35,897 nt of DNA from positions 1-35,897 of IMG/VR virus record IMGVR_UViG_3300020186_000055. One strand, 5' to 3'. The notes under the pieces were generated by a model. It made no database searches. It was not told the DNA's origin and saw nothing but the letters and a program-made list of their open reading frames with translations. This stretch comes from a virus. Every line of letters starts with the position of its first letter. Positions within the stretch are counted from its first letter, which is position 1. Of this stretch, positions 3,057-28,835 are shown piece after piece. A program made the position numbers and the translations under genes.

Positions 3057-4085
3057 TTGTCCGAGTATACCCCAGCCTTTCAAACGCTTCTGGACGCTTG
3101 CGAAGCAAAGTCCAAAAAAAGCTCCATTGAAGACATCAGGGCTTTCTTTTACGTAGAGTGTCAAAGACTCGGACCTTGGGAGCGTTTGCAAAATATGTAT
3201 CGCATCCGCCCCAAGAGGGCGGTACCTGGTGAGAAGAGCCGCTTGGTGTTCTTTACACCGAACAAGATGCAGGCGGAGTTTTGGAAGAATCACACCAATC
3301 GAGATTTGGTGCTGAAGATGAGACAAGGCGGTGTAACGACTTTCTCCTGTCTTATCGCACTGGACCTATGTCTCTGGACTCCAGGCGTCCACACCGCCAT
3401 CATGGCGCACGTTAAGGAACTCGTTAAGAAGTATTTTAGGATTACGACGACAGCGTTTAAAGCATTCCAGGAAGATTGGGGAATGTTCTATCCGGTGTCG
3501 AAAAAAGTCGACAACGTTAACGAGTTACAGATTAAAGAGAATAATTCTAGCCTTACTGTTTGCACTGAATGCAAAGGCCTTACCCTTGATTTTCTTCACA
3601 TTGCCGAAGCAGCCTTCGTTCCAGACGATAGAATTAGTGAATCGCTAGAGGCCGTCCCCCTTTCTGGCTGGGCAATCATGGAGACGACGCCCGATACTGC
3701 AACGGGTCTCTTCTACGAGCTTTGGGATATTTGGGAGCGCGGAGACATGTGCACCTTCAAGGGCCACTTCTTTGAATGGTGGTATCAGTACCCCGAGCCC
3801 CAAGACATTCCGTTTCTCAAGACCACTAAAGAGTTTGTATATTCCGACAAGGAGCAAATCCTTGCAAGCTCTCACGATCTTTCGAGAGAACACGTTATTT
3901 GGCGTCGGCTCAAGATAGCCGAGTCTGGCGGAGATGAGGGAGAGTTTTCCAGGAAGTACCCTGAGGACCCTAGAAATTGTTGGCTCTCTGGTGCCTCCTC
4001 AGTTTTTCCAGCGGCGGTTCTTGCCGCGCTGTGGCGTAATGAACGCCCCCCTGCATTTGTAGGCAGGCTTGAATCTGTGACTTAG
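3057..4085 (+). CDS. Terminase large subunit, N-terminal ATPase part
   Basis: The packaging motor ATPase. The P-loop-like stretch is KMRQGGVTT (residues 87-95), of the lysine-displaced type common in terminases. The Walker B region is FLHIAEAAF with Glu184 as the acidic residue. The coupling motif is METTPD (208-213). Translation starts at a TTG one base after the previous stop. The frame ends at an in-frame TAG (4083-4085) before the nuclease domain. Beyond the TAG the same frame stays open and protein-like (PADRPLILVEVKDEVTQRRA) until about 4180, and the nuclease then continues in another frame. The gene is therefore either broken or expressed as separate pieces. Confidence 0.8.
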   Translation: MSEYTPAFQTLLDACEAKSKKSSIEDIRAFFYVECQRLGPWERLQNMYRIRPKRAVPGEKSRLVFFTPNKMQAEFWKNHTNRDLVLKMRQGGVTTFSCLIALDLCLWTPGVHTAIMAHVKELVKKYFRITTTAFKAFQEDWGMFYPVSKKVDNVNELQIKENNSSLTVCTECKGLTLDFLHIAEAAFVPDDRISESLEAVPLSGWAIMETTPDTATGLFYELWDIWERGDMCTFKGHFFEWWYQYPEPQDIPFLKTTKEFVYSDKEQILASSHDLSREHVIWRRLKIAESGGDEGEFSRKYPEDPRNCWLSGASSVFPAAVLAALWRNERPPAFVGRLESVT

Positions 4086-4183
4086 CGGCCCGCTGCTCCG
4101 ACCAACCCACCCGTGCCAGCGGATAGACCCCTAATACTAGTTGAGGTCAAGGATGAGGTAACTCAGCGCCGCGCAAGGTTAAA

Positions 4184-4885
4184 ATGCGAAAAATCAAATT
4201 TCAATCAGAAGAGGTTAAAAACCTTAAGGATTGGTGCGGTCTTCGCATTTACGAAATGCCTAAGCAAATGGCAACCTACGTGATCGGAGCGGACGTAGCC
4301 GAGGGAGTAGGGCGGGATGCGTCTGTTGCCCAGGTGGTGAATATCAAGACGGGTCTGCTTGCCGCAAGCTACTGGTCGAACTTCATCGACACCGATAATT
4401 ACGCGGCTGAGCTTTACAAGCTCGGAATGTTTTACAACAAAGCCCACCTGATTCCAGAGTTTAACAACAACGGACAGGGGGTCATTGCACTTCTGGGAGG
4501 TGCTGTCGGCGGCCTCGCCTATCCCAACCTCTACAAGAGGATTGTCTTCGACGAATATACCCAAAAACGAACGAAGAAAATAGGATTCAAAACGACCGTC
4601 AGCACCAAGCCCAGGTTAATTGAAAATTTGAAAGCAGCCCTAAGAGACGGAGAGATCATCATCTACGACAAAGCAACGATCCAAGAGCTTAGCACCTTCG
4701 TCCGAGACGAAAAGTCGGGCAGGGTTGCGGCCAAAGGTTCGGCTAAAGATGATCGAGTCATGGCCCTAGCACTCGCTTGGGAGCAAGCCCGGCAGCTCCG
4801 GGAATCAATTTCACAAACTGAAGAAACCCATCGCCCGCGTGTTGAGTACGACTCCATGACGGGCTTTCCGTGTTCCCCCTTCTAA
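4184..4885 (+). CDS. Terminase large subunit, C-terminal nuclease part
   Basis: The RNase H-like headful or cohesive-end nuclease of terminase. The three acidic motifs are visible: YVIGADVAEG (Asp37), IPEFNNNGQG (Glu92) and KDDRVMALA (Asp189/190). Its ATG has AAGG five bases upstream, so it could be translated as its own chain. It lies in the frame -1 relative to the ATPase part. At 233 residues it is the length of the missing half, and the two parts together match a normal terminase. Its stop overlaps the portal start as TAATG. Confidence 0.8.
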   Translation: MRKIKFQSEEVKNLKDWCGLRIYEMPKQMATYVIGADVAEGVGRDASVAQVVNIKTGLLAASYWSNFIDTDNYAAELYKLGMFYNKAHLIPEFNNNGQGVIALLGGAVGGLAYPNLYKRIVFDEYTQKRTKKIGFKTTVSTKPRLIENLKAALRDGEIIIYDKATIQELSTFVRDEKSGRVAAKGSAKDDRVMALALAWEQARQLRESISQTEETHRPRVEYDSMTGFPCSPF

Positions 4886-9433: not shown

Positions 9434-9730
9434 ATGAGTCGACAGAGTGTACTTCCGAGAGAACAATTTGATTACGCCCGCATTGCAACAAACGCTAGTA
9501 CCGCCGTTAAGGTGGGGCAGGGGGCATTACACACGATTTCCGTTAACAAGGTTGGAGCATCGGCAAATGTTTGTACCGTTTACGACGGCCTCTCTGCTGC
9601 TGGAACCGTGATTGCGGCTGTAGACACGACCGCCAGGGCATCGATTCTCTACGATGTTGTTTTTAACATTGGACTTTTTATTGTCACCGCCACGGGAACC
9701 GCCGGGGATATTACGGTTAGCTATCGATAA
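9434..9730 (+). CDS. Small beta-rich virion protein candidate, 98 aa
   Basis: After a short polar start the sequence is a run of beta-strand-like segments (ALHTISVNKVGA, ANVCTVYDGL, ILYDVVFNIGLFIVTATG). Size and composition resemble capsid decoration or fibre-associated proteins, and it resembles in style the two small proteins at 22885 and 23230. The stop overlaps the next gene's ATG (TAATG). Function is inferred from composition and position only. Confidence 0.7.
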   Translation: MSRQSVLPREQFDYARIATNASTAVKVGQGALHTISVNKVGASANVCTVYDGLSAAGTVIAAVDTTARASILYDVVFNIGLFIVTATGTAGDITVSYR

Positions 9731-10443
9731 TGGCAATGACTCGCGGACAACTTTTAGATCGATGCGCCAAGATTATCGGCGATGACAGCTCGGACTTTCG
9801 CACCACTGTCGCTGGTGGGTTAGACCATATGTTGTTTTCGTTATGGGATCGCCACGATTGGGCGTTCAAACACAAGACCGGCACCTTTACCACAGTTCTC
9901 GGAACGGAATCCTACAATTTAAGTTCTGGAACCCCCGACCTTCGGTCCACCGAGGACCTTGATGTCGTTTATGATAAAACTAACGGCCTCAGGCTCCGCA
10001 AAGTTGATCTTCGCGCAGTGCGAAAAGTTTACCCCAAAGAGGATAGCACCGGCAAACCGGCCCAGTACGCATCCTGGGGGGCAAAGACAATATTTCTTAC
10101 CCCTAACCCTGACGGTGCCTACGTCATTAAGTTTTTGTATTTAAGCAAACCCACACTGCCGACGGCGGATGCTAACGACTTAGAAACTCAGTGTGGCCTT
10201 CCGGACTATGTCCAATTTTTGTTTGAGAAGATGGTGCTAGCCGAGGCCATGCTTTACTCAGACGATTCCCGCCGCCCGACGATTCTCCAGGAACTAGAGA
10301 GCATCCTTTTGCCAAAGGCAATCGAGGCCGATATGCGGCACCTAGAATCCGGTGCACGCTTCAAGTTTTGGGAAGAAGAGTTATCCCCAACGAGCCTTAC
10401 CTACGACGATTATCTTAGAAACGTTTACTTTTCCGAAAACTAA
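9730..10443 (+). CDS. Head-tail adaptor / tail tube protein A-like
   Basis: The first ring below the portal in short-tailed phages. The helical start (MTRGQLLDRCAKIIGDD, then LDHMLFSLWDRHDWAFKH), a beta-rich centre with GTESYNLSSGTPDLRS, and a helical C-terminus ending WEEELSPTSLTYDDYLRN are the layout of podovirus adaptor proteins (gp4/gp11-like). Length 237 fits. It precedes the large tail hub, as in other podoviruses. Confidence 0.65.
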   Translation: MAMTRGQLLDRCAKIIGDDSSDFRTTVAGGLDHMLFSLWDRHDWAFKHKTGTFTTVLGTESYNLSSGTPDLRSTEDLDVVYDKTNGLRLRKVDLRAVRKVYPKEDSTGKPAQYASWGAKTIFLTPNPDGAYVIKFLYLSKPTLPTADANDLETQCGLPDYVQFLFEKMVLAEAMLYSDDSRRPTILQELESILLPKAIEADMRHLESGARFKFWEEELSPTSLTYDDYLRNVYFSEN

Positions 10444-16107: not shown

Positions 16108-16644
16108 ATGTTAAAATCGAAAACCCTACAACTAATCCCTTACGGACCCGAGCACTGGGAAATCATGGCCCGCTGGTACTACGACGATGCTTACCGGGAT
16201 ATGTTTCGTCACCATACCAAGCTTCTTCGCAAACACGAACTAGAGAACTACACGGCCCTAATAGGTGGTGAGGCCTTTATTGTTTTAGATGCCGCCGGCA
16301 AAGAACCCATGGGCTACGTTCAAGTAATCCCCAGCCATAAGCACAACAGGTCCTTTGAAGTCGGGATGCTCATAGACAAGAAGTTTCAAAAAAATAGAAA
16401 CCCTTGTGAAGTTCTCGTTGTCCTCTTTGAGTACATGTTCCACAAGCTAGGCTTTCACAAAGCTGTCATTGAAATCTTAGAGAGCAACACCAGCCTTAAG
16501 AAAACGTTGGTGGCTGCGGGTTTCATGAGCGAAGGCCGACTGGTTGACGAGTCCTATATGGACGGCAAATACGTTAACGAACTTCGTTTCGCGATGTTCG
16601 ACTCCTATTACAACAAACACTACAAACAGAAATTAGCGGCTTAA
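16108..16644 (+). CDS. GNAT-family acetyltransferase
   Basis: A 178-residue N-acetyltransferase that would transfer acetyl from acetyl-CoA. The layout is typical: strand-helix start (LQLIPYGPEHWEIMARWY), central strands FIVLDAAGKEPMGYVQVI and FEVGMLID, an acetyl-CoA site region KFQKNRNPCEVLVVLFEYMF, and the terminal AVIEILESNTSLKKTLVAAG motif of RimJ-like enzymes. The usual Q/RxxGxG/A loop is degenerate (QKNRNPCE). The substrate is unknown. Sitting among fibre and ejection genes, it may modify a virion protein or a host target. Confidence 0.75.
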   Translation: MLKSKTLQLIPYGPEHWEIMARWYYDDAYRDMFRHHTKLLRKHELENYTALIGGEAFIVLDAAGKEPMGYVQVIPSHKHNRSFEVGMLIDKKFQKNRNPCEVLVVLFEYMFHKLGFHKAVIEILESNTSLKKTLVAAGFMSEGRLVDESYMDGKYVNELRFAMFDSYYNKHYKQKLAA

Positions 16645-17858: not shown

Positions 17859-19084
17859 TGGCTAAGAATCTTGAGAATGTTCTGAATATTTTAGGCTCTG
17901 GCCTCAACCTTGGCGGCAAGCTCTTGTTTGGTTTAGACGGGGACACCAACTTGGGTGAGCCCCTTCAAATGCTAGGTGGCCACCTAGCTAAGAAGCGCCA
18001 AGACAAGTCCCTTATGGACATCCTTAATGGGGTGGGGACCGAGATCCCGGAAGCGGCTCCACTTATTCAAGGAGCCATGAGTCTCGCCCAGAACGGAGGA
18101 ATTTTGGGGCGTGGTTCCGGGGCTATGGGCGAAACCCCGAGCGGGGAGCCCGTTACACAGGCCATAGGCCAGCAACCACCCCAGCCCTCCGGGGCAGCAC
18201 CAACCGCGCAAGAATCCATTGCCTCCATGATGAGCGGTCCAATCACAGCCAACTCAGATTTTTCGAGCCCTGATTTTATTCGGAGACTGGCCACGGGAGG
18301 CCGTGAAGATTTAGCCGAGTACGCGCTTAAGCAAAAGCTCCAGGGCAACTCTGCAATGGAAGACCTTAGAACCATGATGCTGGGCCAGCAGCTAACCACC
18401 ATGGAAACTCCCCAGCAGAAAACCGCCAGGGACATAGCCGCCAGTAACGAAAAGGCACAATTTGCGGATGAGTTAGCGGGCAACCGCCAATCGGCGCAGA
18501 AAGCGGAAATGGCGTCTCATCTTAAGCCAGGAGAGATTGACGACTTAGGGAAGCAGGAATCCGTCCTGGGTTTGTTACAGACCATCTCCGACATAGTGCC
18601 AAAGAACGCCCAAGCCCTTGCGCTCCTCGACAAAGTACCAGTTATAGGTCCGGCGGTTATTTCCAAGGTCGATCCGGGATTTGCAGCGGCTAAGAAACAG
18701 CTTTTGGACATCAAGGGGCAGATTGCCACTAGCCGGGGCGGTAAAGCGCTTACCCAGCTTGAGGCTTCGCTGACGCTGGGCACAATGCCGGAGTACCTTG
18801 AAGACCCAAAATTTTTTCCCGTATTAAAAAGAAACGTTATAGCCCGCACTCAGTTTGCCAATTACGCCAGCATGGACTCACTGCAAAAGGGCGGCCGTGA
18901 CGTTAGCAGTTACATCCCCCCCGAAAAATTAGCTAAGTTTAGAGACTTCCGCGGCGCGCTTCAGAAGCACGGCCAAAAAATATTTGAGGTTCCTGAAGTT
19001 CAAGCGGCTATGGCCGAGCTAGGCCTAGACGGATTCATCCTACCGAAAAAACCAAATGGCAACTCTCCAAGACCTTCTAGATAA
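17858..19084 (+). CDS. Internal virion / ejection protein, 408 aa
   Basis: The N-terminal 80 residues are hydrophobic and glycine-rich (VLNILGSGLNLGGKLLFGLD). A Pro/Gln-rich linker follows, then long helices (AEYALKQKLQGNSAMEDLRT; TISDIVPKNAQALALLDKVP). The 3' end overlaps the transglycosylase gene by 29 bases. The organisation resembles large helical ejection proteins that line the trans-envelope channel. Confidence 0.6.
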   Translation: MAKNLENVLNILGSGLNLGGKLLFGLDGDTNLGEPLQMLGGHLAKKRQDKSLMDILNGVGTEIPEAAPLIQGAMSLAQNGGILGRGSGAMGETPSGEPVTQAIGQQPPQPSGAAPTAQESIASMMSGPITANSDFSSPDFIRRLATGGREDLAEYALKQKLQGNSAMEDLRTMMLGQQLTTMETPQQKTARDIAASNEKAQFADELAGNRQSAQKAEMASHLKPGEIDDLGKQESVLGLLQTISDIVPKNAQALALLDKVPVIGPAVISKVDPGFAAAKKQLLDIKGQIATSRGGKALTQLEASLTLGTMPEYLEDPKFFPVLKRNVIARTQFANYASMDSLQKGGRDVSSYIPPEKLAKFRDFRGALQKHGQKIFEVPEVQAAMAELGLDGFILPKKPNGNSPRPSR

Positions 19085-20957
19085 AAAATACGGTACGGCT
19101 TCACCCACCCCCCAAGAGGCTCCAGCTAAGGCAGCTCCGCAAGCCCCCGCCAGCACCATCGGCAACAAGGGTCTTCCCACGACTCTCCCGGAGGCCTACT
19201 CGGCACCGGAGCTGAAGCCTGTTTTCACCACCGACCCGGATCGCCAGCTTGAAGAGTTTCGAGTACGCACCGCCGCGTTAGCTGGTGGTGTTGACCCCCA
19301 TTTAGCCGCAGCGGTTGCACAGCAAGAGTCGGGATTTAATCGTAACGCCGTATCCCGAACTAACGTTAAGGGGACCATGCAGGTAACGCAGAACACGGGC
19401 CGGGGTCTGGGCTACAATCGAGATGACCCCGACGAGAACGTGCTTGCAGGGGTGGCTCTCCTCAAAAAGGGTCTGGATGCTAACGGGGGGGATCTTAACA
19501 AAGCGCTCTCCATTTACCCAGATCCTACCGACGCGCCCAAGTGGATTCCCGCCGTTTTAGCCAACCACGAAAAGAGCAAGGGCTCCACACCGTCGGGCCT
19601 AGATCAAGCAATTACAAACCACTTTACTCAGCCGACAGGCCCAGAGCCTACGCCGGAAACCGCCGTTGAGCCAACTGTTGGGGCTAACCCCGCACCTCCG
19701 CCGCTTGATTTACCAACAGCCGCCGTTGGTTACGGGCAAACCGGCACCTATGGCCAGGGCGTAAAGGGTGTCGCGGCCGTAAATGCAATTTTACAAAAGC
19801 TGGGGCTTCAGAAGACGGTCAATTCCGTTGTTGCACCCGATCAAGGCCTCTCTGGAGCCTATGACGCCAATCTAAAACGTCTCCAAGAAAAGCAAGCGCG
19901 GGCTTACGCCGACAACCCGGGCTCCGCACAGATAGGCTCCGTTCTTGCCACGCTCTTTGCCCCGGGAAAGTTTGGTAAGGGGACAAGCTGGGCGGGTAAA
20001 ACGGGAATGGGGATTTTAGAGGGCGGAAGGCAGTCGGCAGCGATGACCGCTGGGCTTAACCCAGATGCTACTAAAGAGGAGTTAATTAAAAATACCCTCA
20101 TGGGCGGCGCCATGGGTGGCGTGGTTTCCGGCGCTCTCGGCGGTGTTGAGAAGTATTCCAACAGCCTAGTGTCCACGAATTTAGCAACTAAGGACGCTGG
20201 CGAATACATCAGCAATAAGTTTGGGTTTACTAAGTCAATTGAGTCTCTCAAAAAGAAAGTTCTGGAACGACTCCCCCAAACGAAAATCGAGCTTGATGTC
20301 GTGTTGAAGAAAGCAGCTCGCGGTAGGGTGGATCTTCCCAAGAACATGAACCCGGGTGATATAAGAGAATATGCGGATGCAATTCTTAACCACCCCGACA
20401 ACCTAGATGACGCATCACGGCTGTACGACATTAGCAACTTTGCTAAGAGGAACGGCTTCATGACCCCGGACGACGCGCACTTTCTCAAAAGATCCTACCA
20501 ACAAGCGGCGGATTACGGGCTCGACCCGAACAACTTTTCAGCCGGGGTGGGTAATCGCAACTTCGCGGCTGAGTTAAAGGGAAACATCTCCAACGCCGTT
20601 GGGCCAAAGGTGGCGGGCCAGTTAGACACCGTAAACGAAGAGCGACATATGTTGGGCAGCATTAAAAAGGGAATTGAGAAGGTAAACACGCGTGTGCCTC
20701 GCCCCCCGCGCCAAATGGGCGTCGCTCTTGCTGCAAATACTTACGGACTTAGCCTGATCCCAAAAGCCTTAGAGACTCTCCCCGGAGGGACCGGCGTTAC
20801 CGCCCTAGCTAAGAGCCTCCCGCGCCCGCTCATGTCGGTTTTAAACTCACTCCTCTCGGGCCTCTCTGAAGTGGAACAAGAAAAGATTCTTAACGATCAG
20901 GATTCTCGGAAGGCTATCAGTCAAATTTTCCAACAAAAGTTAGGTGCTAAGAAATGA
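19056..20957 (+). CDS. Virion-associated lytic transglycosylase (ejection protein)
   Basis: A 633-residue protein with an SLT-type peptidoglycan transglycosylase domain at about residues 65-160. The catalytic Glu lies in AVAQQESGFN (Glu91), followed by KGTMQVTQNTGRGLGY and the helix around ENVLAGVALLKKGL. A Pro-rich linker (about 185-225) leads to a helical C-terminal part with glycine-rich amphipathic stretches. The enzyme would open the cell wall locally as DNA enters. It overlaps the genes on both sides. Confidence 0.75.
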   Translation: MATLQDLLDKKYGTASPTPQEAPAKAAPQAPASTIGNKGLPTTLPEAYSAPELKPVFTTDPDRQLEEFRVRTAALAGGVDPHLAAAVAQQESGFNRNAVSRTNVKGTMQVTQNTGRGLGYNRDDPDENVLAGVALLKKGLDANGGDLNKALSIYPDPTDAPKWIPAVLANHEKSKGSTPSGLDQAITNHFTQPTGPEPTPETAVEPTVGANPAPPPLDLPTAAVGYGQTGTYGQGVKGVAAVNAILQKLGLQKTVNSVVAPDQGLSGAYDANLKRLQEKQARAYADNPGSAQIGSVLATLFAPGKFGKGTSWAGKTGMGILEGGRQSAAMTAGLNPDATKEELIKNTLMGGAMGGVVSGALGGVEKYSNSLVSTNLATKDAGEYISNKFGFTKSIESLKKKVLERLPQTKIELDVVLKKAARGRVDLPKNMNPGDIREYADAILNHPDNLDDASRLYDISNFAKRNGFMTPDDAHFLKRSYQQAADYGLDPNNFSAGVGNRNFAAELKGNISNAVGPKVAGQLDTVNEERHMLGSIKKGIEKVNTRVPRPPRQMGVALAANTYGLSLIPKALETLPGGTGVTALAKSLPRPLMSVLNSLLSGLSEVEQEKILNDQDSRKAISQIFQQKLGAKK

Positions 20958-21382
20958 AGATAAACAGTGAGGGCCTAGCCCTTCTTAAGAAATTTGAGGG
21001 TTGCAAGCTCAAGGCCTACAAAGACGGCGGTGGAGTTCTCACGATTGGTTACGGCCACACTAAGGCCGTAAAGTCCAGCGATACCCTTACACAAGCGGAA
21101 GCCGATAAGCTTCTGTCGCAGGATTTGAAATGGGCTGAGGATGCAATTAAGAATCTCGTCGCAGCCCCCCTCAATGACAACCAATTTTCGGCTCTTGTCT
21201 CTCTGGTATTTAACATTGGTGAAACCGCCTTTACCAAATCCACCATTCGCAAGCTTCTGAACGCCGAGCTTTATCACGAATCCGCCAGGCAATTCCTTAA
21301 GTTTGTCTATGATAATCGGGTGTTTGTGCAGGGACTTTATAATCGGCGAGTCGCAGAAAAAGCCTTATTCGAGAAGGCGTAA
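20954..21382 (+). CDS. Endolysin, T4-type lysozyme (GH24)
   Basis: Muramidase that degrades peptidoglycan at the end of infection. The family triad is spaced exactly as expected: Glu15 in KKFEGCKLK, Asp24 in YKDGGG and Thr30 in VLTIGYGHT. The conserved helical lobe LNDNQFSALVSLVFNIG follows. At 142 residues it is normal for a P22/T4-type enzyme. There is no signal or anchor sequence, so it needs a holin for release. It overlaps the previous stop (ATGA). Confidence 0.9.
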   Translation: MKINSEGLALLKKFEGCKLKAYKDGGGVLTIGYGHTKAVKSSDTLTQAEADKLLSQDLKWAEDAIKNLVAAPLNDNQFSALVSLVFNIGETAFTKSTIRKLLNAELYHESARQFLKFVYDNRVFVQGLYNRRVAEKALFEKA

Positions 21383-21739
21383 ATGGACAGCCCAACTTTC
21401 ATTATATCAATTTTAGGCTCAAGCGTTGTTACGAGCGGCATCACCGCTATCATTACAAAGTGGCAAACTACGCGCACAGACACAGCTTCTGCAAAGAAAA
21501 CCGAGGCGGAGGCCGAGAAGATCCAGGCAGACTCGGACACGGACCTAGCCCAACAAATTCTTTCCTACGCTAAGCAGCTCCGCGATGAAATCAACATACT
21601 AAACGCAAGGGTGGACGTTCTCACCGCCCAAAACACGGAGTTCGTTCGCATGGTCGCTAAACTAGAGGCGGAAAAAATGATCCAGCAGAGCGAGATTAAC
21701 GAGCTTCGGGCGGAACTGTCCGGGCGGGGGGTGGTGTAA
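21383..21739 (+). CDS. Putative holin with coiled-coil tail
   Basis: Begins at the base after the lysozyme stop. One hydrophobic segment (FIISILGSSVVTSGITAII, about residues 6-24) precedes a long charged coiled coil (about 45-113, with QLRDEINILNARVDVLTAQN). The position between endolysin and spanin fits a holin or a holin regulator. A single membrane span with a long cytoplasmic coiled coil is less common, so a different lysis-control role is possible. Confidence 0.55.
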   Translation: MDSPTFIISILGSSVVTSGITAIITKWQTTRTDTASAKKTEAEAEKIQADSDTDLAQQILSYAKQLRDEINILNARVDVLTAQNTEFVRMVAKLEAEKMIQQSEINELRAELSGRGVV

Positions 21740-21741
21740 CA

Positions 21742-22056
21742 ATGTTCGGTTTAGGGTGGATTACTGTTTTGGGCGTTCTTAAGAAGCTTTGGAAGCCACT
21801 TCTTCTCATCACACTAGCTGTGAGCCTCTTTGGCGTTGGCTATTTCAAGGGCAAAAGAAACTGCGCCAACATCGTTGAGCGTAAAGTTTTCGTTGAGGTC
21901 GAGAAGCGCCGAGAAGAGGTTCAAAAAGAACAGGTCAAAACCAAAAAGCGCCAGGACGAGATTCGCAAATCACGTGACAAGAATCCGGCAAACGATAAGC
22001 GCGACTCTTGCTTGCTGTCGAACGACCCTTACGGGGTTGATTGTTTACACCCATGA
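21742..22056 (+). CDS. Inner-membrane spanin (Rz-like)
   Basis: A membrane span near residues 17-36 (PLLLITLAVSLFGVGYF) is followed by a Lys/Glu-rich coiled coil (VEKRREEVQKEQVKTKKRQD) and a short Cys-containing end. This is the i-spanin plan: inner-membrane anchor with a periplasmic coiled coil that binds the o-spanin to fuse inner and outer membranes. Its stop overlaps the o-spanin start as ATGA. Confidence 0.75.
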   Translation: MFGLGWITVLGVLKKLWKPLLLITLAVSLFGVGYFKGKRNCANIVERKVFVEVEKRREEVQKEQVKTKKRQDEIRKSRDKNPANDKRDSCLLSNDPYGVDCLHP

Positions 22057-22280
22057 AAAAGTATCAATTATTGCTCCTTTTACCCCTGTTTGTTTTGGAG
22101 GCATGCGCTACGAGAATGGTTCCCGTTAGGATCGCATGTCCACCCCGACCCGTTATGCTCCCCGTTACCGTCATTGATGGTACGGTTAGCGGAGAGGCTC
22201 TCGATAATGCGATCTTTAACACCCTCAAGCTCTGGGAACATGTGCACGTTGTGGAAAAGTTGGGTTGCACCAGAGCCTAG
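22053..22280 (+). CDS. Outer-membrane lipoprotein spanin (Rz1-like)
   Basis: A 75-residue lipoprotein. Lys2 and Lys3 and a Leu-rich core lead to the lipobox LEAC with Cys18 as the lipidated residue. The mature part is short and includes a Pro-rich PPRPVMLP stretch typical of o-spanins. I chose the ATG at 22053, which overlaps the i-spanin stop and puts the signal sequence at the N-terminus, over an ATG four codons earlier. The 3' end overlaps the rhomboid gene in another frame. Confidence 0.8.
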   Translation: MKKYQLLLLLPLFVLEACATRMVPVRIACPPRPVMLPVTVIDGTVSGEALDNAIFNTLKLWEHVHVVEKLGCTRA

Positions 22281-22812
22281 CCAGTTCTACCCATACGTTA
22301 CTTTCTTAATTACTGGGGTTTGTTTTCTCGTTTACTTCCTCGGATGGAACACCGCTTTTGTTTGGGACGAGGGTTTCTCTAAATCGTGGCACCTAGCGAC
22401 TTCCCTGTTCAGCCACGGAAGTATCCAGCATCTAATGGGAAACATGTTGCTTCTGCTCTTGGTCGGCCCAGCCTGTGAGAAGCATCTTGGGCGGTTGAAA
22501 TATCTAGCGCTTTATCTCCTCTCTGGCGCAGGTGCAGCACTCTTCTTTGGGAGCTTTGCAACAGAGACTGGAATACTCGGGGCTTCAGGAGCGCTCTCAG
22601 GGCTCTTGGCGGTTTACCCGTTTTTGCGACGAAACTTAGTCGGCTTCCTCTTCGGAGTGATTCTAGTCGGCTTTAGCTTTCTCGGGGATTTTACAAGCTT
22701 TTTGCAACAAGTCTTAGGCGTATCTGGATCACACACAGCCCACTTAGCGCATGTCGCTGGCGGGGTGGTTGGGGTTCTTGCTCTCGCCTTCTTCCGGCGC
22801 AATCCGCGCTAA
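22240..22812 (+). CDS. Rhomboid-family intramembrane serine protease
   Basis: A 190-residue polytopic membrane protein with about six spans. All rhomboid hallmarks are present, numbered from this start: His64-x3-Asn68 (HLMGN) on the first core helix, Glu80 in GPACEKHLG, the catalytic Ser116 in GILGASGALSG, and His171 in AHLAHVAGG on the last helix. It should cleave single-pass membrane proteins within or near the bilayer. The ATG at 22240 lies within the o-spanin gene with only a weak GGGA, and upstream reading of the frame is not protein-like. A position directly after the spanin pair suggests a role in lysis timing, spanin or holin processing, or altering the host envelope. Confidence 0.8.
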   Translation: MCTLWKSWVAPEPSQFYPYVTFLITGVCFLVYFLGWNTAFVWDEGFSKSWHLATSLFSHGSIQHLMGNMLLLLLVGPACEKHLGRLKYLALYLLSGAGAALFFGSFATETGILGASGALSGLLAVYPFLRRNLVGFLFGVILVGFSFLGDFTSFLQQVLGVSGSHTAHLAHVAGGVVGVLALAFFRRNPR

Positions 22813-22884
22813 TCAACAACAAAAACCTTTGCGAGTTCAAACAGGGCTTCGGTCTTGTGGATTGCTTAGGAGAAAGGACAAACC

Positions 22885-23196
22885 ATGCCTCGGAGAATTA
22901 CAGCAAGCTCCGCTTCTGATTCCGTAACTGGCACTGGTGCCCTGCTTACCTGTCTGACGGGTTTCAAGCCGATGGAAGTAACCATCTATAATCGCACCGG
23001 TCTCGGTGTCGGTTATTGGTGTGCTGGTATGTTGGACGATGAAGCTCTCATCTTCGACGATACCGGCGCAGGTACCGCGGATGCTTCATTCGCAACCTCG
23101 GGTGGAATCACCCCAACGTTCAATGGGTTTACCATTGGCACCAACGCAGCACTAAACACCACATCAGACGCACTCTACTGGGTCGCTTACAAGTAA
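22885..23196 (+). CDS. Small beta-rich virion protein, probable decoration protein, 103 aa
   Basis: A strong AGGAGAAAGGAC precedes the ATG, and codon use is biased like that of the capsid gene, so it should be made in large amounts. The sequence is beta-rich with Gly/Thr/Ala turns (TGTGALLTCLTGFKPMEVTI, end DALYWVAYK). It shares a layout with the next gene: a TGxG turn, a hydrophobic strand, GF-x-P, then alternating strands. A head decoration role is inferred from abundance signals and composition. Confidence 0.65.
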   Translation: MPRRITASSASDSVTGTGALLTCLTGFKPMEVTIYNRTGLGVGYWCAGMLDDEALIFDDTGAGTADASFATSGGITPTFNGFTIGTNAALNTTSDALYWVAYK

Positions 23197-23229
23197 GCGC
23201 CAAAACACAAACATCTAAGGAGAATAACC

Positions 23230-23517
23230 ATGCCTAAAGTGTACGAGGCAGAAACCGGTACTTACACCGGAGACGGGATTGCTAAGGCTCTTGTTCTTGG
23301 CTTCAACCCCCGTTATTTCAAACTCATCAATATCACCGACCGAATCGTGGACGAGAAAACCGATTCAATGTTGACCAACGTCAACTTGAATATCGCCGCT
23401 GCGGGTACTCAAACCTCGGCGACTAACCTCACCTTCTCGGCAACCGGCGTCTCCATTGCCGCGGGTGCCAACGTAAACGCTAAGGTCTATCACTACTTAG
23501 CTCTGGGCGGACTCTAG
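23230..23517 (+). CDS. Small beta-rich virion protein, paralogue-like, 95 aa
   Basis: AAGGAG seven bases ahead of the ATG and clean codon bias again predict high expression. The start (ETGTYTGDGIAKALVLGFNP) parallels the TGTGALLTCLTGFKP segment of the upstream protein, and both end in an aromatic beta-strand. It is the last gene of the rightward arm, immediately before the terminator. Confidence 0.65.
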   Translation: MPKVYEAETGTYTGDGIAKALVLGFNPRYFKLINITDRIVDEKTDSMLTNVNLNIAAAGTQTSATNLTFSATGVSIAAGANVNAKVYHYLALGGL

Positions 23518-23580
23518 GCCTGGTGGCCTAGGTACCCGCGCTCCACGTAGCTATCTAGCTAACAATACAATTAAATAAAG

Positions 23581-23619
23581 AAAGCCCCCTTGAGCGATTA
23601 AACTCTTGGGGGCTTTTTT
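23581..23619. terminator. Bidirectional intrinsic terminator between convergent operons
   Basis: AAAGCCCCC (23581-23589) pairs with GGGGGCTTT (23608-23616), with an inner GAG/CTC pair and a T run on the plus strand. The minus strand carries TTTCTTTATTT after the stem. It separates the rightward structural arm from the leftward early arm. Confidence 0.9.
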
Positions 23620-23714
23620 ATTGTCTGGTTCTATTGACTATACGGGTAATAGAATATGTATATACCTTGTGTATACGTAGTATTAGACAAACCTACTGAC
23701 AACTTGTCTATTTG

Positions 23715-23894
23715 CTAGTCTTCTATCTCCTTCAACCAAGCCAAATAGTGCTTGGCGGAACGCTCAACCTCTTTCTGTCTATCCGTGTCCCACCCCCGGA
23801 CAAGGGCTTCCAGACTGAGCTTCTCCGAGTCGCGAACGTACTGCTCGGCCTGGGCTAGGGTTTCTTCGTAGTGAGTGAAATCACATTTTCTCAT
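23715..23894 (-). CDS. Small hypothetical protein, 59 aa, last gene of the leftward arm
   Basis: An acidic helical protein beginning MRKCDFTHYEETLAQAEQYV and ending LAWLKEIED. A GGGTGG-type ribosome binding site lies six bases ahead of the ATG, and the preceding gene ends eleven bases upstream. No family is recognised. It is the promoter-distal end of the accessory cluster beyond the integrase. Confidence 0.6.
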   Translation of the reverse strand: MRKCDFTHYEETLAQAEQYVRDSEKLSLEALVRGWDTDRQKEVERSAKHYLAWLKEIED

Positions 23895-23904
23895 CTAAGC
23901 CACC

Positions 23905-24015
23905 CTAATGTTTCGGTCGAAAGATACCCGTGACAATTGCAATTACAAGAACCCCAAAGAAGATTCCCCAAACTAGGCACGTAAATATATTGATGGCCTG
24001 TACTGCGTATTCCAT
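23905..24015 (-). CDS. Single-span membrane micro-protein, 36 aa
   Basis: An excellent AAGGAGG precedes the ATG directly after the HAD gene's stop. The product is one hydrophobic helix (TCLVWGIFFGVLVIAIVTG) with a short polar N-terminus and a basic end (FRPKH). It is probably inserted in the inner membrane. Function unknown. Confidence 0.6.
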   Translation of the reverse strand: MEYAVQAINIFTCLVWGIFFGVLVIAIVTGIFRPKH

Positions 24016-24024
24016 GAGGCCTCC

Positions 24025-24516
24025 TTAGCGTAAACTATTGATGAATTTAGCGTCTGCTTCGGCGCTGTAAACAAAGGGTGGGTCCGGGAGATCAACTGTA
24101 GAACCACCAACATCCTCGGGACCGTCTTCCTCTTTGGAGTCAACACAAAACCCAACGGCATCGGTGTCAAGCGGCTCGGTCCAATTCGCTGTGTTTTTTC
24201 TAAAGATGTTGTCTTTAAGACCCTCCCAGAATTTGTAATCCCATACTTTAACTATGTTGTAAGAACCTATGATGCGATCAGGGCTATCGTCGATGACTAT
24301 ATCCGGCTTGTCGAGGATGGCGTCGAAGTAGCCGGTTAGCGCGTGCATTTTGAGTATTCGCCGGGCGTACTCCTCTCCGCCAGCGCTCCAGCAAACTAGC
24401 TTGTACCCCTTGCTGTTTTTCAACCACTCAAGGCCCTTACGGGCTCCGGGGAGAAGCTCGTTGTCTGCGTTGATTAGGGTGAGATCGACATCAATGAAGA
24501 TGGTGCGTACCGACAT
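24025..24516 (-). CDS. HAD-superfamily phosphatase
   Basis: A 163-residue haloacid dehalogenase-like hydrolase. Motif I is FIDVDLTLI (nucleophile Asp9, Asp11), motif II LVCWSAGG (Ser44), Lys70 is a candidate for motif III, and motif IV is IVIDDSPD (Asp76/Asp77). A Pro/Asp-rich C-terminal tail lies beyond the core. Likely substrates are nucleotides or a nucleic acid end such as a 3'/5' phosphate. It lies in the coupled accessory cluster with an exonuclease and a nucleotide diphosphohydrolase. Confidence 0.75.
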   Translation of the reverse strand: MSVRTIFIDVDLTLINADNELLPGARKGLEWLKNSKGYKLVCWSAGGEEYARRILKMHALTGYFDAILDKPDIVIDDSPDRIIGSYNIVKVWDYKFWEGLKDNIFRKNTANWTEPLDTDAVGFCVDSKEEDGPEDVGGSTVDLPDPPFVYSAEADAKFINSLR

Positions 24517-24519
24517 TAG

Positions 24520-24699
24520 TCACGCAGCCTTTCTTGGACCCTTGAGGGGGTTAGGCCCGCCAGTGTCCGATCCGCCGACGCGCTTCAGAAGCATTTGATA
24601 CAGCTTGTTAGCCCCGTCATAAAACCGGGAGAAAATATCCACACTCTTATGCTCTTCCCAGAAGTCCTTCCATACTGCTTTAAGTTCTTCCTCGGTCAT
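24520..24699 (-). CDS. Small hypothetical protein, 59 aa
   Basis: GGAGG five bases ahead of an ATG that overlaps the stop of the metalloprotease gene (ATGA) makes this frame convincing. It begins MTEEELKAVWKDFWEEHK and ends in a basic, Gly/Pro-rich tail (GPNPLKGPRKAA). Helical, acidic at the start and basic at the end. No family recognised. Confidence 0.65.
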   Translation of the reverse strand: MTEEELKAVWKDFWEEHKSVDIFSRFYDGANKLYQMLLKRVGGSDTGGPNPLKGPRKAA

Positions 24700-25031
24700 A
24701 GATACCTCCGAACCGCGTATTGTTTTAGTTTGTCGTACATTGATCGCCAGGCGTCACCGTGATATTTAACGTCAGGGACTAGGTGAGCCACCTCATGGCA
24801 AACCAACAGGACTAGCTCTCTCATGGTGACTAGGCGTCCTAGCTTGGGGGTTTTGAGGCGGATGCGAATATTTCCCAGATCGTCGCACCACCCCCAATAA
24901 TAGTCGTGGCACTTGTCGCCCCTGTGCATCACCTTAAAGGAACGAAGGGGCTTCTTGATCCGCCCGTAACTCACCAGTTCCCGGGCAACGGTTTCCGCGA
25001 AGCCGAGCAGATATTTTTCTGCCAGCTTCAT
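24696..25031 (-). CDS. SprT-like zinc metallopeptidase
   Basis: 111 residues with HEVAH (His79, Glu80, His83) in VLLVCHEVAHLVPDVKYHG and a third ligand candidate His91, followed by AWRSMYDKL as in SprT/WLM-type proteins. The N-terminal part binds basic or nucleic acid surfaces (GRIKKPLRSFKVMHRG). Related proteins cut DNA-bound or DNA-crosslinked proteins. Here it could process a host DNA-binding protein or a phage target. It ends inside the next gene's start and begins beside the exonuclease stop. Confidence 0.7.
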   Translation of the reverse strand: MKLAEKYLLGFAETVARELVSYGRIKKPLRSFKVMHRGDKCHDYYWGWCDDLGNIRIRLKTPKLGRLVTMRELVLLVCHEVAHLVPDVKYHGDAWRSMYDKLKQYAVRRYL

Positions 25032-25811
25032 TTATGCCGCCTTCTTGACCTTTTCGGGTTTAGGGACCTTAAGCTCCGTACTCACCCAAGCGCCGCAACG
25101 ACGGCACTTCCATTGCTGCATAATCTTAGTTTTGAGCGGTCGTGGTCCTTGAGCTGAGAAGCTTCCTACTTCACCACAACATTGGCAGAGCTTAGGGCGC
25201 TCGGCTACGCCTAGCTCTTCAAGGGTTGAGATTGAGTGAATAGGGGGGTGGTCTGTCACTAGAGGTCGCAAACGTAGGTAAATCTCTTCGGTTATCCGAA
25301 CGTCGGATTCGCAACGCCTGGCGATCCTTCGGATGGCAAGCTCGTTCCCCGCGTTAGCCAAAAGCCAAGTATCCGCCGGGAGATGCATCTTGCTTTCATC
25401 GAGATTAAAGAACGTGGCGAGCGCCGCGAGGCTGTTGGACTTAAGGCCCAGGTAACGCCTGGCGTACTCACAAGTATCGAAGGCGGTGTATTTGTTGCTA
25501 AGGAGAGGGAAGCCGTGTTTCAGGAGCTTGGTTTGGATGAATTTAAAATCGCATCGTTTGCCAAACTGAAAGACGTGCAGGTCGACATCCTGGAGGATCT
25601 TTCCAATCTCGCGAACAAGGTTAGAATCGTCGATACTGGTACGCCCAGGATAGTCCAATATGCTGATAGTTTTAGCCCTGGGGGACCCCAGTTCTTTATA
25701 GCCAAAACAGAAAATAAAGCCTGGGTCAATGCGGAGGTCCCCCTTAAAGGTTTGGGTGGCGCAGAATTCTAGATCGTAGATGAGGATTTTTGGTTTTCTA
25801 GGCTGCTTCAT
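25032..25811 (-). CDS. DEDD-type 3'-5' exonuclease with C-terminal zinc ribbon
   Basis: 259 residues. The RNase H-like exonuclease core has motif I ILIYDLEF (Asp13, Glu15), motif II FQFGKRCDF (Asp88) and motif III RRCESDVR (Asp170). The aromatic residue usual before the third motif's CxxD is Arg here, so the active site is slightly unusual. A zinc ribbon follows: CQCC at 209-212 and CRRC at 236-239. The ribbon should bind nucleic acid. It is distinct from the polymerase's own proofreading domain. It may degrade host DNA or RNA or trim ends during recombination. Confidence 0.7.
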   Translation of the reverse strand: MKQPRKPKILIYDLEFCATQTFKGDLRIDPGFIFCFGYKELGSPRAKTISILDYPGRTSIDDSNLVREIGKILQDVDLHVFQFGKRCDFKFIQTKLLKHGFPLLSNKYTAFDTCEYARRYLGLKSNSLAALATFFNLDESKMHLPADTWLLANAGNELAIRRIARRCESDVRITEEIYLRLRPLVTDHPPIHSISTLEELGVAERPKLCQCCGEVGSFSAQGPRPLKTKIMQQWKCRRCGAWVSTELKVPKPEKVKKAA

Positions 25812-26170
25812 TGATGATTTCCTTTTTTGTAACGGTCGTCGAGTTCCGGATGAGTTTCGGCGTACTCCATGAGCATCATTAGGTTGCAGAGGGCGTGTGC
25901 CAGGTGCGGGAGGTTGGAATCGCTGGCGTTGTCTTCCCGAGAGTTCCAGGACAACAAATGCCGCAGCGTGGCAGCGTAGAGGTCAGACCAGGGAACACCT
26001 TTTCGCCAGTTGTGGGGGGCGTAGGTGGGAATCTTTTCCGTTATCCCCCAGCCCATGACTTTTGCCATTTCAAGGAGGGCGTGGCTGGACAGCAGGTCTA
26101 GGGGTGGTTTGCCTACCTTGTGCTTGGTCCCACCAGTTCCGGCAAGGGTTAGGCCGGGGGAATCAATCAT
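25808..26170 (-). CDS. dATP/dGTP diphosphohydrolase-like (DUF5664-type) protein
   Basis: 120 residues. The pattern KHKVGKPPLDLLSSHALLEM, then PHNWRKGVPWSDLYAATLRH and LPHLAHALCNLMMLMEY, ending PELDDR, is the signature of the small family annotated as dATP/dGTP diphosphohydrolase N-terminal domain. Such proteins probably adjust the purine deoxynucleotide pool. The ATG at 26170 follows GGAGG and lies inside the end of the membrane protein gene. The longer reading from upstream has no ribosome binding site. The family assignment is from pattern memory. Confidence 0.6.
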   Translation of the reverse strand: MIDSPGLTLAGTGGTKHKVGKPPLDLLSSHALLEMAKVMGWGITEKIPTYAPHNWRKGVPWSDLYAATLRHLLSWNSREDNASDSNLPHLAHALCNLMMLMEYAETHPELDDRYKKGNHQ

Positions 26171-26348
26171 GATAATCCCTCCCAACGAAAAGAATGATCG
26201 CGGCGATAACAAGGACGCCGGCGGTTGCTAGCAACGTCGGGAAAAGGAGCCAGAACGTAGGCCACTCAATGACGCGGATTAGGCGAAGAAAAACTAAGGG
26301 GAAGACAGAGAGGTAGCAGGCGCCCAAAAGAAAGTTACATACCCGCAT
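26163..26348 (-). CDS. Two-span small membrane protein, 61 aa
   Basis: AGGAGG six bases ahead of the ATG. Two hydrophobic helices (FLLGACYLSVFPLVFL and WLLFPTLLATAGVLVIAAII) are joined by a short RLIRVIEWP loop. The start lies inside the integrase 3' end and its stop inside the next gene's start, so the integrase and the accessory cluster are one transcription and translation unit. Superinfection exclusion or envelope effects are possible, but unproven. Confidence 0.65.
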   Translation of the reverse strand: MRVCNFLLGACYLSVFPLVFLRLIRVIEWPTFWLLFPTLLATAGVLVIAAIILFVGRDYHD

Positions 26349-27609
26349 GAGTCACCTCCTCTTCGAGTGAGCGAAGAAAGGCTTCCTCGGGTGGCGTCAC
26401 TAAAACGTGACCACTAGAAAAAATACTGTGCGCTTCTGCTAGTGTCGGAGAGTTGCGCGAGGGTTCGAATCCCCCCCGCGGCACTTTATTCTTAGCATGA
26501 TTTTCTTCGTTTCTTTGAAAACTAACGAGATTTGATAACCCATCCTGTACGGTATCATTCGCATCATCCTGTTTCATATCGTTTTCATGGCACTGAAACG
26601 TGACAGCGTTTCGGACGGCAGCTAGCCGATTTTTCTCGGTGTGGCTGTAGAGCAAGGTCGTTTTCATGTCTTTATGCCCCATGATCTTCATTGTGGTTTT
26701 GGGGTCAACTCCCGAGTTTTGAAGCTCGGTGCAATACGTATGTCGAAGTTCGTGAATGGTCATATCCACCCCTGCGCGCTTACACGCATGTTTGAAGTGC
26801 CAGTAGAGGGTGTAGTAAACTCCGCCGAAGGCTGGCCCGGGTTGCAAACGCCTAGCGTACCTCTCAACCCAATCGTTCATGGGAATTAGGCGGTCCGCTT
26901 TGCCCTTGATTTCAACGCCTTCTTGCCAACGGAAATCGATGACGTGGTTTTCGAAGTCGAAATGATCGGGGTAACAGAGCTGTTCCATTTCCCCTTTTCT
27001 AAGCCCGGTGTTTGCGATGAGCAGAATTTCGTCTTTGTGACAGGGACAGAGTTCTTGGATAACTGCCTGTATTTGGTCTGGCGAGCGTGCTTTACGAATT
27101 CGCCTCGGCCGAGGGTGACTAATGAGGAGACCTTTGGTTGGGTTGCTTTCCGCCATTTTGTTTTTAATCGCCCAATCAAAAAGCGACCCCAAGATTGCAA
27201 GATCGTTGTTAACCGTCTTTTCGCTAGCGGGGTGGGCTGAGGCTTGAGGTCCTTTAAATCCCGCAAGTCGCTTAGAGCGGAATTCAATAATGTCCCCCGG
27301 AGTAATGTCGCATAATAAACGGCCCGCAAAGCCGAAAGAGACGAGGTGTTTGAGTCTTCGGGGCTCTTTGTTTGCGTAGTTTTTTGATTTACCCTGGAGG
27401 TACGTTTGGGAGAAGAGGTCGCAAGCCTCTTCAAAAGTTCGGCGAGAAATATAATTAGGAGTTTCTTTCCTGCAAAGCTGTTCCCGTTTAAAATCGATAG
27501 CGGGATTTTCAAATCTAAAAAACTTTCGTTTGCGGATACCTTGCGTGTAATAATCGACATAAAACCTCTTCCGTTTTTTATCGTAGGGAACCTTAACTTT
27601 GATCGCCAT
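26335..27609 (-). CDS. int: Tyrosine-family site-specific integrase
   Basis: Catalyses integration and excision. The catalytic set is complete in 424 residues: Arg204 in ANTGLRKGE, His287-x-x-Arg290 in HELRHTYC, His312 in MGHKDMKTT and the nucleophile Tyr321 in LYSHTEKNR. An arm-binding basic N-terminus (KVPYDKKRKRFYVDYYT) precedes a core-binding domain (about 65-170). The C-terminal PRGGFEPS (377-384) arises because the attachment core, a tRNA 3' end, lies inside the coding sequence. Its 3' end overlaps the membrane protein gene. An excisionase-like gene lies five bases upstream. Confidence 0.95.
   Translation of the reverse strand: MAIKVKVPYDKKRKRFYVDYYTQGIRKRKFFRFENPAIDFKREQLCRKETPNYISRRTFEEACDLFSQTYLQGKSKNYANKEPRRLKHLVSFGFAGRLLCDITPGDIIEFRSKRLAGFKGPQASAHPASEKTVNNDLAILGSLFDWAIKNKMAESNPTKGLLISHPRPRRIRKARSPDQIQAVIQELCPCHKDEILLIANTGLRKGEMEQLCYPDHFDFENHVIDFRWQEGVEIKGKADRLIPMNDWVERYARRLQPGPAFGGVYYTLYWHFKHACKRAGVDMTIHELRHTYCTELQNSGVDPKTTMKIMGHKDMKTTLLYSHTEKNRLAAVRNAVTFQCHENDMKQDDANDTVQDGLSNLVSFQRNEENHAKNKVPRGGFEPSRNSPTLAEAHSIFSSGHVLVTPPEEAFLRSLEEEVTHAGM
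26438..26484 (+). other. attP: attP core: 3' part of a tRNA-Leu-like sequence inside int
   Basis: Read on the plus strand, this looks like the anticodon stem's 3' side (GCTAGTG), a long class II variable arm (TCGGAGAGTTGCGCGA), a T-arm with the invariant loop GGGTTCGAATCCC, and an acceptor end CCGCGGCAC. A long variable arm with a CGGCA end points to tRNA-Leu. No 5' half exists, so it is not a gene. The T stem has one A-C mismatch. Integration into the host tRNA would rebuild the tRNA's 3' end. Confidence 0.7.
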
Positions 27610-27613
27610 TTCG

Positions 27614-27817
27614 CTAGCTCCTCTTGGCTTCCATGAAGCCCACGGTTTTCAAATCCTGGTAAAGCTCAGATGCAACAACGAGCTTCTTGCGCCCTAACCA
27701 ATAACGACGAATCTGCGTGGGGGGAAACTTATTTATCAACTCATGCAAGAAAGTTGGCTTGATTTTTACCAATTTTAATTCACAAAAATCCTTGACCGAA
27801 ATTAGAGGTTCTTTCAT
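27614..27817 (-). CDS. Probable excisionase / small winged-helix protein, 67 aa
   Basis: The reading from the ATG at 27817 begins MKEPLISVKDFCELKLVKIK, then PTFLHELINKFPPTQIRRYW and LGRKKLVVASELYQDLKTV. This is the pattern of a small MerR/Xis-like winged helix, in which the last segment is the wing and a residue-binding strand. Position directly upstream of int is the usual place for xis. A longer reading from 27883 overlaps the preceding gene and is less likely. The start lies inside the cysteine-rich gene. Confidence 0.6.
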   Translation of the reverse strand: MKEPLISVKDFCELKLVKIKPTFLHELINKFPPTQIRRYWLGRKKLVVASELYQDLKTVGFMEAKRS

Positions 27818-27974
27818 TTGGCACGCTTGGAAGGGGCATTTGGAAGGCACAATTCCCATCCTCGGCGGGCTCGAATCGAGCATAGGATTGCCACTCGCTT
27901 GTGGACACAGCCTTAAATCTGAAGCAGTCCTCGCGCTTGGGGCACTTCTTATTTGTGCAAAGTGTAATATCCAT
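27780..27974 (-). CDS. Small cysteine-rich protein, probable zinc binder, 64 aa
   Basis: Begins MDITLCTNKKCPKREDCFRF, with Cys6, Cys11, Cys17 and a later Cys near residue 42 (DGNCAFQMP). The spacing suggests a small metal-binding fold. Similar short proteins with this opening occur in many phages without known function. Its ATG overlaps the stop of the disrupted gene upstream (TAATG). Confidence 0.65.
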   Translation of the reverse strand: MDITLCTNKKCPKREDCFRFKAVSTSEWQSYARFEPAEDGNCAFQMPLPSVPNERTSNFGQGFL

Positions 27975-28408
27975 TAGGGATTAGCCGCCGTGAATCCAAA
28001 ACAAAGCCAGTCTACAGAAAAGTCCCAGCCCGTAATCTTATTATCCCACTTGTATTTTTCGACTGTGACTTTGGGTATCCATTGCCACCGCGAGCCTCAC
28101 CGAAGCTGTTCTCGCCGAGCTCGGCATCCCCTGCGAGCGCGTGAAGCTCGACATCCAAGCGGGCGATACCCATAAGTCGGAATTCCTCAAGCTCAACCCC
28201 AACGGAGTAGTCCCCGTGATCGTGCATGATGGGACGCCGATCTGGGAGTCGGCTCCTTCGTACTGCATCTGGCACAATTTGTTTTGTGGAGTAGGATTCC
28301 TAACAGGTATGATTTTGGGGAGTACCTCGTGCTGTAGGTAAGGAAGTAAAGTTCCAGGGAGTGTTGAATGTTGGCAATCCAGGTTGCTAGTCGCGAGAAG
28401 AATTTCAT
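27974..28408 (-). pseudogene. 79-aa phage gene interrupted by a 195 bp foreign insert
   Basis: The start at 28408 has GGGAGGAAGA directly ahead and opens MKFFSRLATWIANIQHSLEL, continuing to LLGILLHKTN. The other end, in frame to a stop at 27974-27976, reads WIPKVTVEKYKWDNKITGWD and ends LCFGFTAANP. Between them lie 195 bases (28081-28275) encoding part of a glutathione S-transferase on the opposite strand. Removing those bases joins the two parts without loss as HKTNWIPKV. As it stands the first part reads into the insert and stops at 28193. The N-terminal half looks amphipathic. Function unknown. Confidence 0.75.
28081..28275 (+). pseudogene. Glutathione S-transferase N-terminal domain fragment (host-derived)
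   Basis: One continuous frame encodes the thioredoxin-fold part of a GST, missing the first strand and the whole C-terminal domain: ASLTEAVLAELGIPCERVKL, then EFLKLNPNGVVPVIVHDGTP and IWES. The NPNG-x-VP turn with the cis-proline and the ES that binds glutathione are present. There is no start codon, no ribosome binding site and no catalytic N-terminus, so it is not a working enzyme. It is clearly richer in G and C than its surroundings, as expected for captured bacterial DNA. Confidence 0.85.
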
Positions 28409-28481
28409 TCTTCCTCCCTATTCTTTTGAATATTTAAAGTTTTCTGAAGAGTTGGATTTATCATGGACTTGGGTTGGGTCA

Positions 28482-28709
28482 TTATTCTTCCCCCTCGTCA
28501 TCTTCTCGTCCCACCTCGTCGTGCAATTTCTCGCAAAGTAGACACTCGTCCCCGTCGTGATCGACTGTACCCCTGCACCAAATGTTGTGGCACTTAAACT
28601 CCATCACGCCATCCTCGCAGTCGTAATTAGGGTCCCCAGCAAGAAACGTAGCTTCGGGAATAAACTCAGTTAAAATATCCAACTCTTTACTAGTCATTTT
28701 TATTTTCAT
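28482..28709 (-). CDS. Small acidic zinc-ribbon-like protein, 75 aa
   Basis: From the ATG at 28709, with AGGA seven bases ahead: MKIKMTSKELDILTEFIPEA, then CHNIWCRGTVDHDGDECLLC and a very acidic end (EVGREDDEGEE). Pairs CHNIWC and CLLC suggest a zinc site. A longer reading from a TTG at 28778 adds a hydrophobic stretch without a ribosome binding site. Function unknown. Confidence 0.65.
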   Translation of the reverse strand: MKIKMTSKELDILTEFIPEATFLAGDPNYDCEDGVMEFKCHNIWCRGTVDHDGDECLLCEKLHDEVGREDDEGEE

Positions 28710-28835
28710 AATAGTCCTACTTAAATATAAAAACCCAAGTGCCCCATTACTGGGTCCTTCCCTTATGGTCGCTAGCAACCAGAACCCAAACTCCCCGATA
28801 ATTTAAAAGATCAAAAGGTATTTGTGAGTCATGAT

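Follow-up and report, generated by a model that had tools for sequence, protein, structure and literature searches.

We know of no part played by intramembrane proteolysis in phage lysis. Bacterial rhomboids such as GlpG (PF01694, MEROPS S54) are six-helix intramembrane serine proteases with an HxxxN motif, a GxSG serine motif and a catalytic histidine; GlpG removes orphan membrane proteins of the host. The general form of the serine motif is stated to be GxSx (PMC12615303). Rhomboids favour single-span substrates with a periplasmic N-terminus, a cytosolic C-terminus and helix-destabilising residues in the span (PMC7232013), and one named subfamily, rhombosortase (TIGR03902), processes host GlyGly-CTERM surface proteins (PMC3237569, PMC6219818). 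Rhomboids have also been annotated in phage genomes (PMC5834331, PMC7326821), and that of phage DLP5 was termed a moron (PMC5834331). Given these earlier annotations, the suggestion of an undescribed system, made in the first-pass annotation of the DNA studied here, was too strong. In the literature searched, which leaves out most subscription papers and preprints, no link was found between a rhomboid and a phage lysis cassette or spanin; rhomboid, phage and spanin were mentioned together only through a reference title.

The window analysed here is the complete 35,897-nucleotide stretch of the IMG/VR record IMGVR_UViG_3300020186_000055. Outside the locus of interest it carries podovirus-like head and tail genes and genes for a family-A-like DNA polymerase, a DnaB-like helicase and an integrase (26335-27609). 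The large terminase is split into two genes within positions 3057-4885 (3057/3195-4085 and 4184-4885), and the split was seen in all relatives checked. A GNAT acetyltransferase gene (16108-16644) lies among the structural genes; its place is kept in all relatives checked, at about 40-43% identity.

The gene at 22207..22812 on the + strand is annotated here as encoding a rhomboid intramembrane serine protease of 201 aa. The product of its 22240-22812 part, a 190-aa reading, matches the Pfam Rhomboid family (PF01694) with an E-value of 8e-22 and 78.4 bits against a cut-off of 22.6, and PHROG 16931, a family with no assigned function, with an E-value of 1.6e-11. In the numbering of this reading the active-site set comprises H64xxxN68, G114-A-S116-G117 and H171, plus H59; Ser116 and His171 are assigned as the catalytic residues and His64/Asn68 as the oxyanion site. 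H59, H64, N68, G114, S116 and H171 are invariant in an alignment of 20 phage and cellular rhomboids. The AlphaFold2 model built with this alignment has a mean pLDDT of 89.3 and six long helices, and its top structural matches are GlpG entries (Foldseek probability 1.00, TM 0.56-0.68 for those with E-values up to 0.001). A sequence search gives Haemophilus GlpG (E 6e-4) as the closest protein of solved structure. Thus a profile score above the cut-off, the catalytic serine in GxSx, the catalytic histidine, HxxxN and the six-helix fold are all present, and the protein shares fold, helix number and GxSG form with GlpG and other bacterial rhomboids. It differs from GlpG in being encoded by a phage, within a lysis cassette, and in being compact, with no cytoplasmic domain and about 20-25% identity in structural alignments. 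The family score, fold and conservation rule out a chance reading frame, and the presence of every catalytic residue rules out a pseudo-rhomboid. The first-pass identification of a six-span rhomboid with a full active site at 22240-22812 is therefore confirmed by the Pfam match, the invariant residues and the six-helix model. As judged from sequence and model, the rhomboid has a complete catalytic apparatus and is predicted to be proteolytically active.

The start of the gene was reconsidered. The in-frame candidates are TTG 22090, TTG 22174, ATG 22177, ATG 22207, ATG 22240 and TTG 22249. The initial reading placed the start at 22240, inside the upstream o-spanin gene; the overlap stands, and the start is better set at 22207. 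ATG 22207 is preceded at about 9 nt by ggagagg, and ATG 22240 only by a poorly spaced GGGA. Starting at 22207, the gene overlaps the o-spanin gene by 74 bp, identical to the overlap in the nearest relative, G020 (IMG/VR 3300036760_000083, 41,210 bp; capsid protein 66% identical to that of the window), and the rhomboid ATGs of the two phages sit in the same o-spanin codons (DNAI in one, SNAI in the other). The true start is probably 22207 rather than 22240; the evidence is strong and stops short of conclusive because Asn-Ala codons by themselves can create an ATG. In the resulting 201-aa reading Ser116 becomes Ser127.

The rhomboid gene belongs to a run of genes on the + strand. It opens with a gene for an SLT-domain internal virion-type protein (19056-20957, assigned by profile matches) and a T4-lysozyme/GH24-type endolysin gene (20954..21382; Pfam Phage_lysozyme, E 2.6e-42), whose product shows no signal sequence. 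The next gene (21383..21739) encodes a one-span coiled-coil membrane protein of predicted N-out/C-in topology. It had been called holin-like: the single span is there, together with a coiled coil, and no holin family is matched, one relative's copy touching Holin_LLH at E 0.065. It is possible that this protein is the holin. The two genes that follow have the architecture of Rz/Rz1 two-component spanins, an inner-membrane protein with an N-terminal span followed by an overlapping gene for a short lipoprotein. The i-spanin (21742..22056, 104 aa) has one N-terminal span and a basic, coiled periplasmic part; the o-spanin (22053..22280) is a 75-aa lipoprotein with the lipobox LEAC. The o-spanin gene overlaps the i-spanin stop by 4 bp in addition to its overlap with the rhomboid gene. 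Family matches are weak (PHROG Rz-like spanin, E 0.001 for the i-spanin and 0.044 for the o-spanin; none in Pfam above the cut-off). The proposal of a spanin pair upstream of the rhomboid is instead supported by this architecture and by homologues of like architecture: in G020 and two further relatives, G012 and G017, each i-spanin homologue has an o-spanin gene next to it, and Cys18, W61 and a GC near the C-terminus are invariant in the alignment of the four o-spanins. Downstream of the rhomboid lie two genes for small proteins, also on the + strand. According to blastp, the first (22885..23196) matches a segment of a homologous protein of 209-441 aa found at the same place in relatives, and the second (23230..23517) occurs in relatives in one or two copies that close the same gene run. 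A terminator-like hairpin was spotted by eye 3' of these genes, near 23585-23620; consensus scans for promoters and terminators gave no clear excess over shuffled sequences.

A second contig of the same phage (L002, IMG/VR 3300020203) matches window positions 18981-28809 at 99.8% identity, with 22 differences. The same arrangement in this contig, over 9.8 kb, rules out an assembly artefact. None of the differences falls in the 606 bp of the rhomboid gene, where about 1.4 were expected, numbers too small to be informative on selection. Eight of the 22 lie within about 820 bp (21383-22206) covering the coiled-coil protein and the spanins, and five of these eight change an amino acid; this observation is post hoc and the numbers are small.

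G020 has the gene order M15-type endolysin, a 135-aa protein, one-span coiled-coil protein, i-spanin, o-spanin, rhomboid, and homologues of the 22885 and 23230 proteins. The unit of coiled-coil protein, i-spanin, o-spanin and rhomboid is thus common to both phages despite different endolysin families (GH24 and M15-type). The G020 rhomboid is 37% identical to that of the window over the alignment and keeps the serine, the histidine and HxxxN, with GASV in place of GASG. It may be active, since cellular rhomboids with GASA are present in the 20-rhomboid comparison set and the general motif is GxSx (PMC12615303); its predicted activity is less sure than that of the window enzyme.

Further relatives were gathered by portal and capsid alignments. 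Six records with one rhomboid each form a second clade (G005, G006, G018, G021, G011 and G012) and represent three distinct phages, as G005, G006, G018 and G021 carry the same rhomboid as far as their sequence was read. Second-clade rhomboids have a complete active site and lie among structural genes, at a distance of about 10 kb from the endolysin gene, flanked on one side by a small three-span protein and on the other by a homologue of window gene 9730-10443. The small, probably three-span protein precedes the rhomboid in every member of this clade (L035:10171-10545, L037:14581-14877, L042:3995-4270); it has no family match, and no counterpart of it was seen in the window. The endolysin is of GH108 type (shown for G006), and a one-span coiled-coil protein lies downstream of it, not always directly. 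Three unrelated endolysin families, GH24, M15 and GH108, are thus seen in the group (window 20954-21382, L110:8851-9222 and L037:3053-3499), with the coiled-coil protein still downstream. The spanin pairs of G012 and G017 are located on the other, replication-side arm, behind a RecA-like gene and away from the endolysin, with no rhomboid adjoining (L036:7171-7791, L045:1389-2162). G009 and G017 end short of the rhomboid site, and the other records with no match are short fragments, so a missing rhomboid is uninformative in these cases. No rhomboid was found in more distant capsid relatives (27-31%), including four records of 31, 34, 36 and 39 kb.

A rhomboid is present in all of the longer close relatives whose sequence includes the region, always in line with late-type genes. 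A place in the lysis cassette is common to the window and G020, and the second clade has its rhomboid elsewhere. The co-occurrence of rhomboids with spanins in relatives, proposed as a check in the first-pass annotation, therefore holds for G020, with the same order and the 74-bp overlap, and fails for the second clade, where the spanins, when found, lie apart from the rhomboid. By gene content and order, the rhomboid is conserved in the phage group within late-type gene runs, but its association with spanins does not extend to the whole group.

The window and G020 proteins come out as sisters (100/90) in a tree of 48 rhomboids, which also unites the three proteins of the second clade in one group (100/100). 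A single clade of all five phage rhomboids is neither supported nor rejected (p-AU 0.27), the branches being long; on this result two acquisitions of rhomboids are possible, as is the movement of one old rhomboid gene. Two sets of genomes were searched for cellular rhomboids, 192 from the phylum to which a Bacteriovoracaceae genome belongs and 289 from that of an Akkermansiaceae genome; the closest scored no more than about 57 bits, so no recent host donor was found in these two sets. With the window rhomboid as query, a protein search of 50,697 phage records gave no match even at E 10. Other rhomboid queries found in these records only Delepquintavirus (Stenotrophomonas phages DLP5, DLP3 and Summit), two huge phages, and unverified or bacterial-looking records. 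One such record, the contig 'Acinetobacter phage MD-2021a', was rejected as a source of a phage rhomboid, as it looks bacterial (ppk, tesA, oxyR and other ordinary bacterial genes). A search of a structure library of viral proteins gave about six rhomboids. Phage rhomboids are thus rare but known, in DLP5, in huge phages and as PHROG 16931. The window resembles DLP5, DLP3, Summit and the two huge uncultured phages in having a rhomboid in a phage genome (PMC5834331, PMC7326821), although the DLP5 and huge-phage proteins do not group with it in the tree.

Candidate substrates were screened among the window gene products with a simple hydropathy and charge rule. The coiled-coil protein at 21383-21739 is the clear topology fit, with flank charges of −1 on the N-terminal and +3 on the C-terminal side and small residues at 9 of the 19 span positions. 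Its family is predicted to be N-out in four of five members, with a tie in the fifth, and half of the span is G/A/S/T. Moreover, among single-span membrane proteins it alone was seen in all five lineages, in each downstream of the endolysin. Since this topology and span composition agree with those of reported rhomboid substrates (PMC7232013), we consider it most likely the best candidate substrate, with the predicted N-out/C-in orientation that rhomboids prefer.

The explanation we favour, tentatively and at somewhat less than even probability, is that of a complete rhomboid made late that cleaves this protein around lysis. Judged by its position, the rhomboid would be made late, from the same gene run as the endolysin, the coiled-coil protein and the spanins, and its translation would probably be coupled to that of the o-spanin through the overlap. 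By analogy with GlpG it would reside in the inner membrane with the Ser-His dyad near the periplasmic face. There it would cleave a single-span membrane protein with a periplasmic N-terminus, and the phage's own 21383-21739 protein could thereby be adjusted or removed around lysis. The conserved cassette and the identical overlap in G020, despite the differing endolysin, count for this explanation, as do the sister position of the two rhomboids in the tree and the presence of a rhomboid, in line with late-type genes, in the longer close relatives. The second-clade rhomboid counts against it, lying beside an unrelated three-span protein at such a distance from the lysis genes that their proximity is evidently not required. 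Further points against are GASV in G020 and the fact that one-span coiled-coil proteins like 21383 match PHROGs of unknown function, so that such proteins probably occur in phages with no rhomboid as well. Action of the protease late in infection is likely, a view supported by the conservation of its active site and by its place among late-type genes. A role in lysis is plausible only, because the relatives keep the rhomboid and only the nearest keeps it in the lysis cluster; timing of lysis is possible.

A host target is nearly as likely as the phage's own protein. Late in infection the rhomboid could cleave membrane or surface proteins of the host, for example shedding a receptor or surface protein, so that progeny escape trapping or competitors are kept out, or removing orphan membrane proteins as GlpG does. 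This standing comes from the retention of the gene away from lysis genes, independently of the cassette, and from the closest named subfamily: rhombosortase is the best NCBIfam match of both the window (34.5 bits) and G020 (41.4 bits) proteins, yet both scores are far below the curated equivalog cut-off of 84, which tempers the argument. Among the called proteins of the window and its relatives, all of them phage genes, no GlyGly-CTERM-like C-terminus was found; this led us to drop a phage-encoded rhombosortase/GlyGly-CTERM pair and is consistent with a target in the host. The DLP5 rhomboid, unlike that of the window, lies among surface-polysaccharide genes, and more than 30 kb separate it from the annotated lysozyme. 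A host target does not account for why two divergent phages keep the gene precisely within the spanin block.

We consider it rather unlikely that the gene is a moron, a housekeeping rhomboid taken from hosts on more than one occasion, which would benefit the host (lysogen) or be neutral and would have no particular connection with the phage cycle. The integrase, the differing rhomboid positions in the two groups and the possible double acquisition agree with such an origin. The active site is complete in all close members whose sequence covers the gene, although the group is divergent (capsid proteins 55-66% identical to that of the window); this argues against a moron, as do the location in long late-type gene runs rather than beside the integrase and the overlap with the o-spanin gene.

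Slightly more doubtful still is a stronger form of the explanation we favour, in which lysis would be the dedicated role of the rhomboid: translated together with the spanins, it would cut the holin-like, N-out coiled-coil protein and in this way determine or license the time of lysis. The i-spanins as a family are N-in/C-out, although the hydropathy and charge rule left the orientation of the window protein ambiguous. This orientation is seldom cut by rhomboids (PMC7232013), and the i-spanin, one of the two substrates named in the first-pass annotation beside the 21383 protein, was dropped as a substrate. Cleavage of either spanin, or service as a spanin-control factor, suggested by the o-spanin overlap in the window and G020, is very improbable given the i-spanin orientation, the outer-membrane location of the o-spanin lipoprotein and the distance between spanin pair and rhomboid in G012.

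By sequence and context, the rhomboid is real, conserved and unusual, and its link to the lysis cassette is seen in two divergent phages but not in the sister clade. A phage group with a rhomboid complete in its active site, overlapping the o-spanin gene in two divergent members, offers a compact test case, in which the protease and a one-span candidate substrate from the same cassette are both defined and lysis time is a simple read-out. If the rhomboid is indeed a lysis component, it would add a fourth kind to the lysis proteins, after holins, endolysins and spanins; if its target is a host protein, it would represent a new phage route to remodelling of the host envelope.
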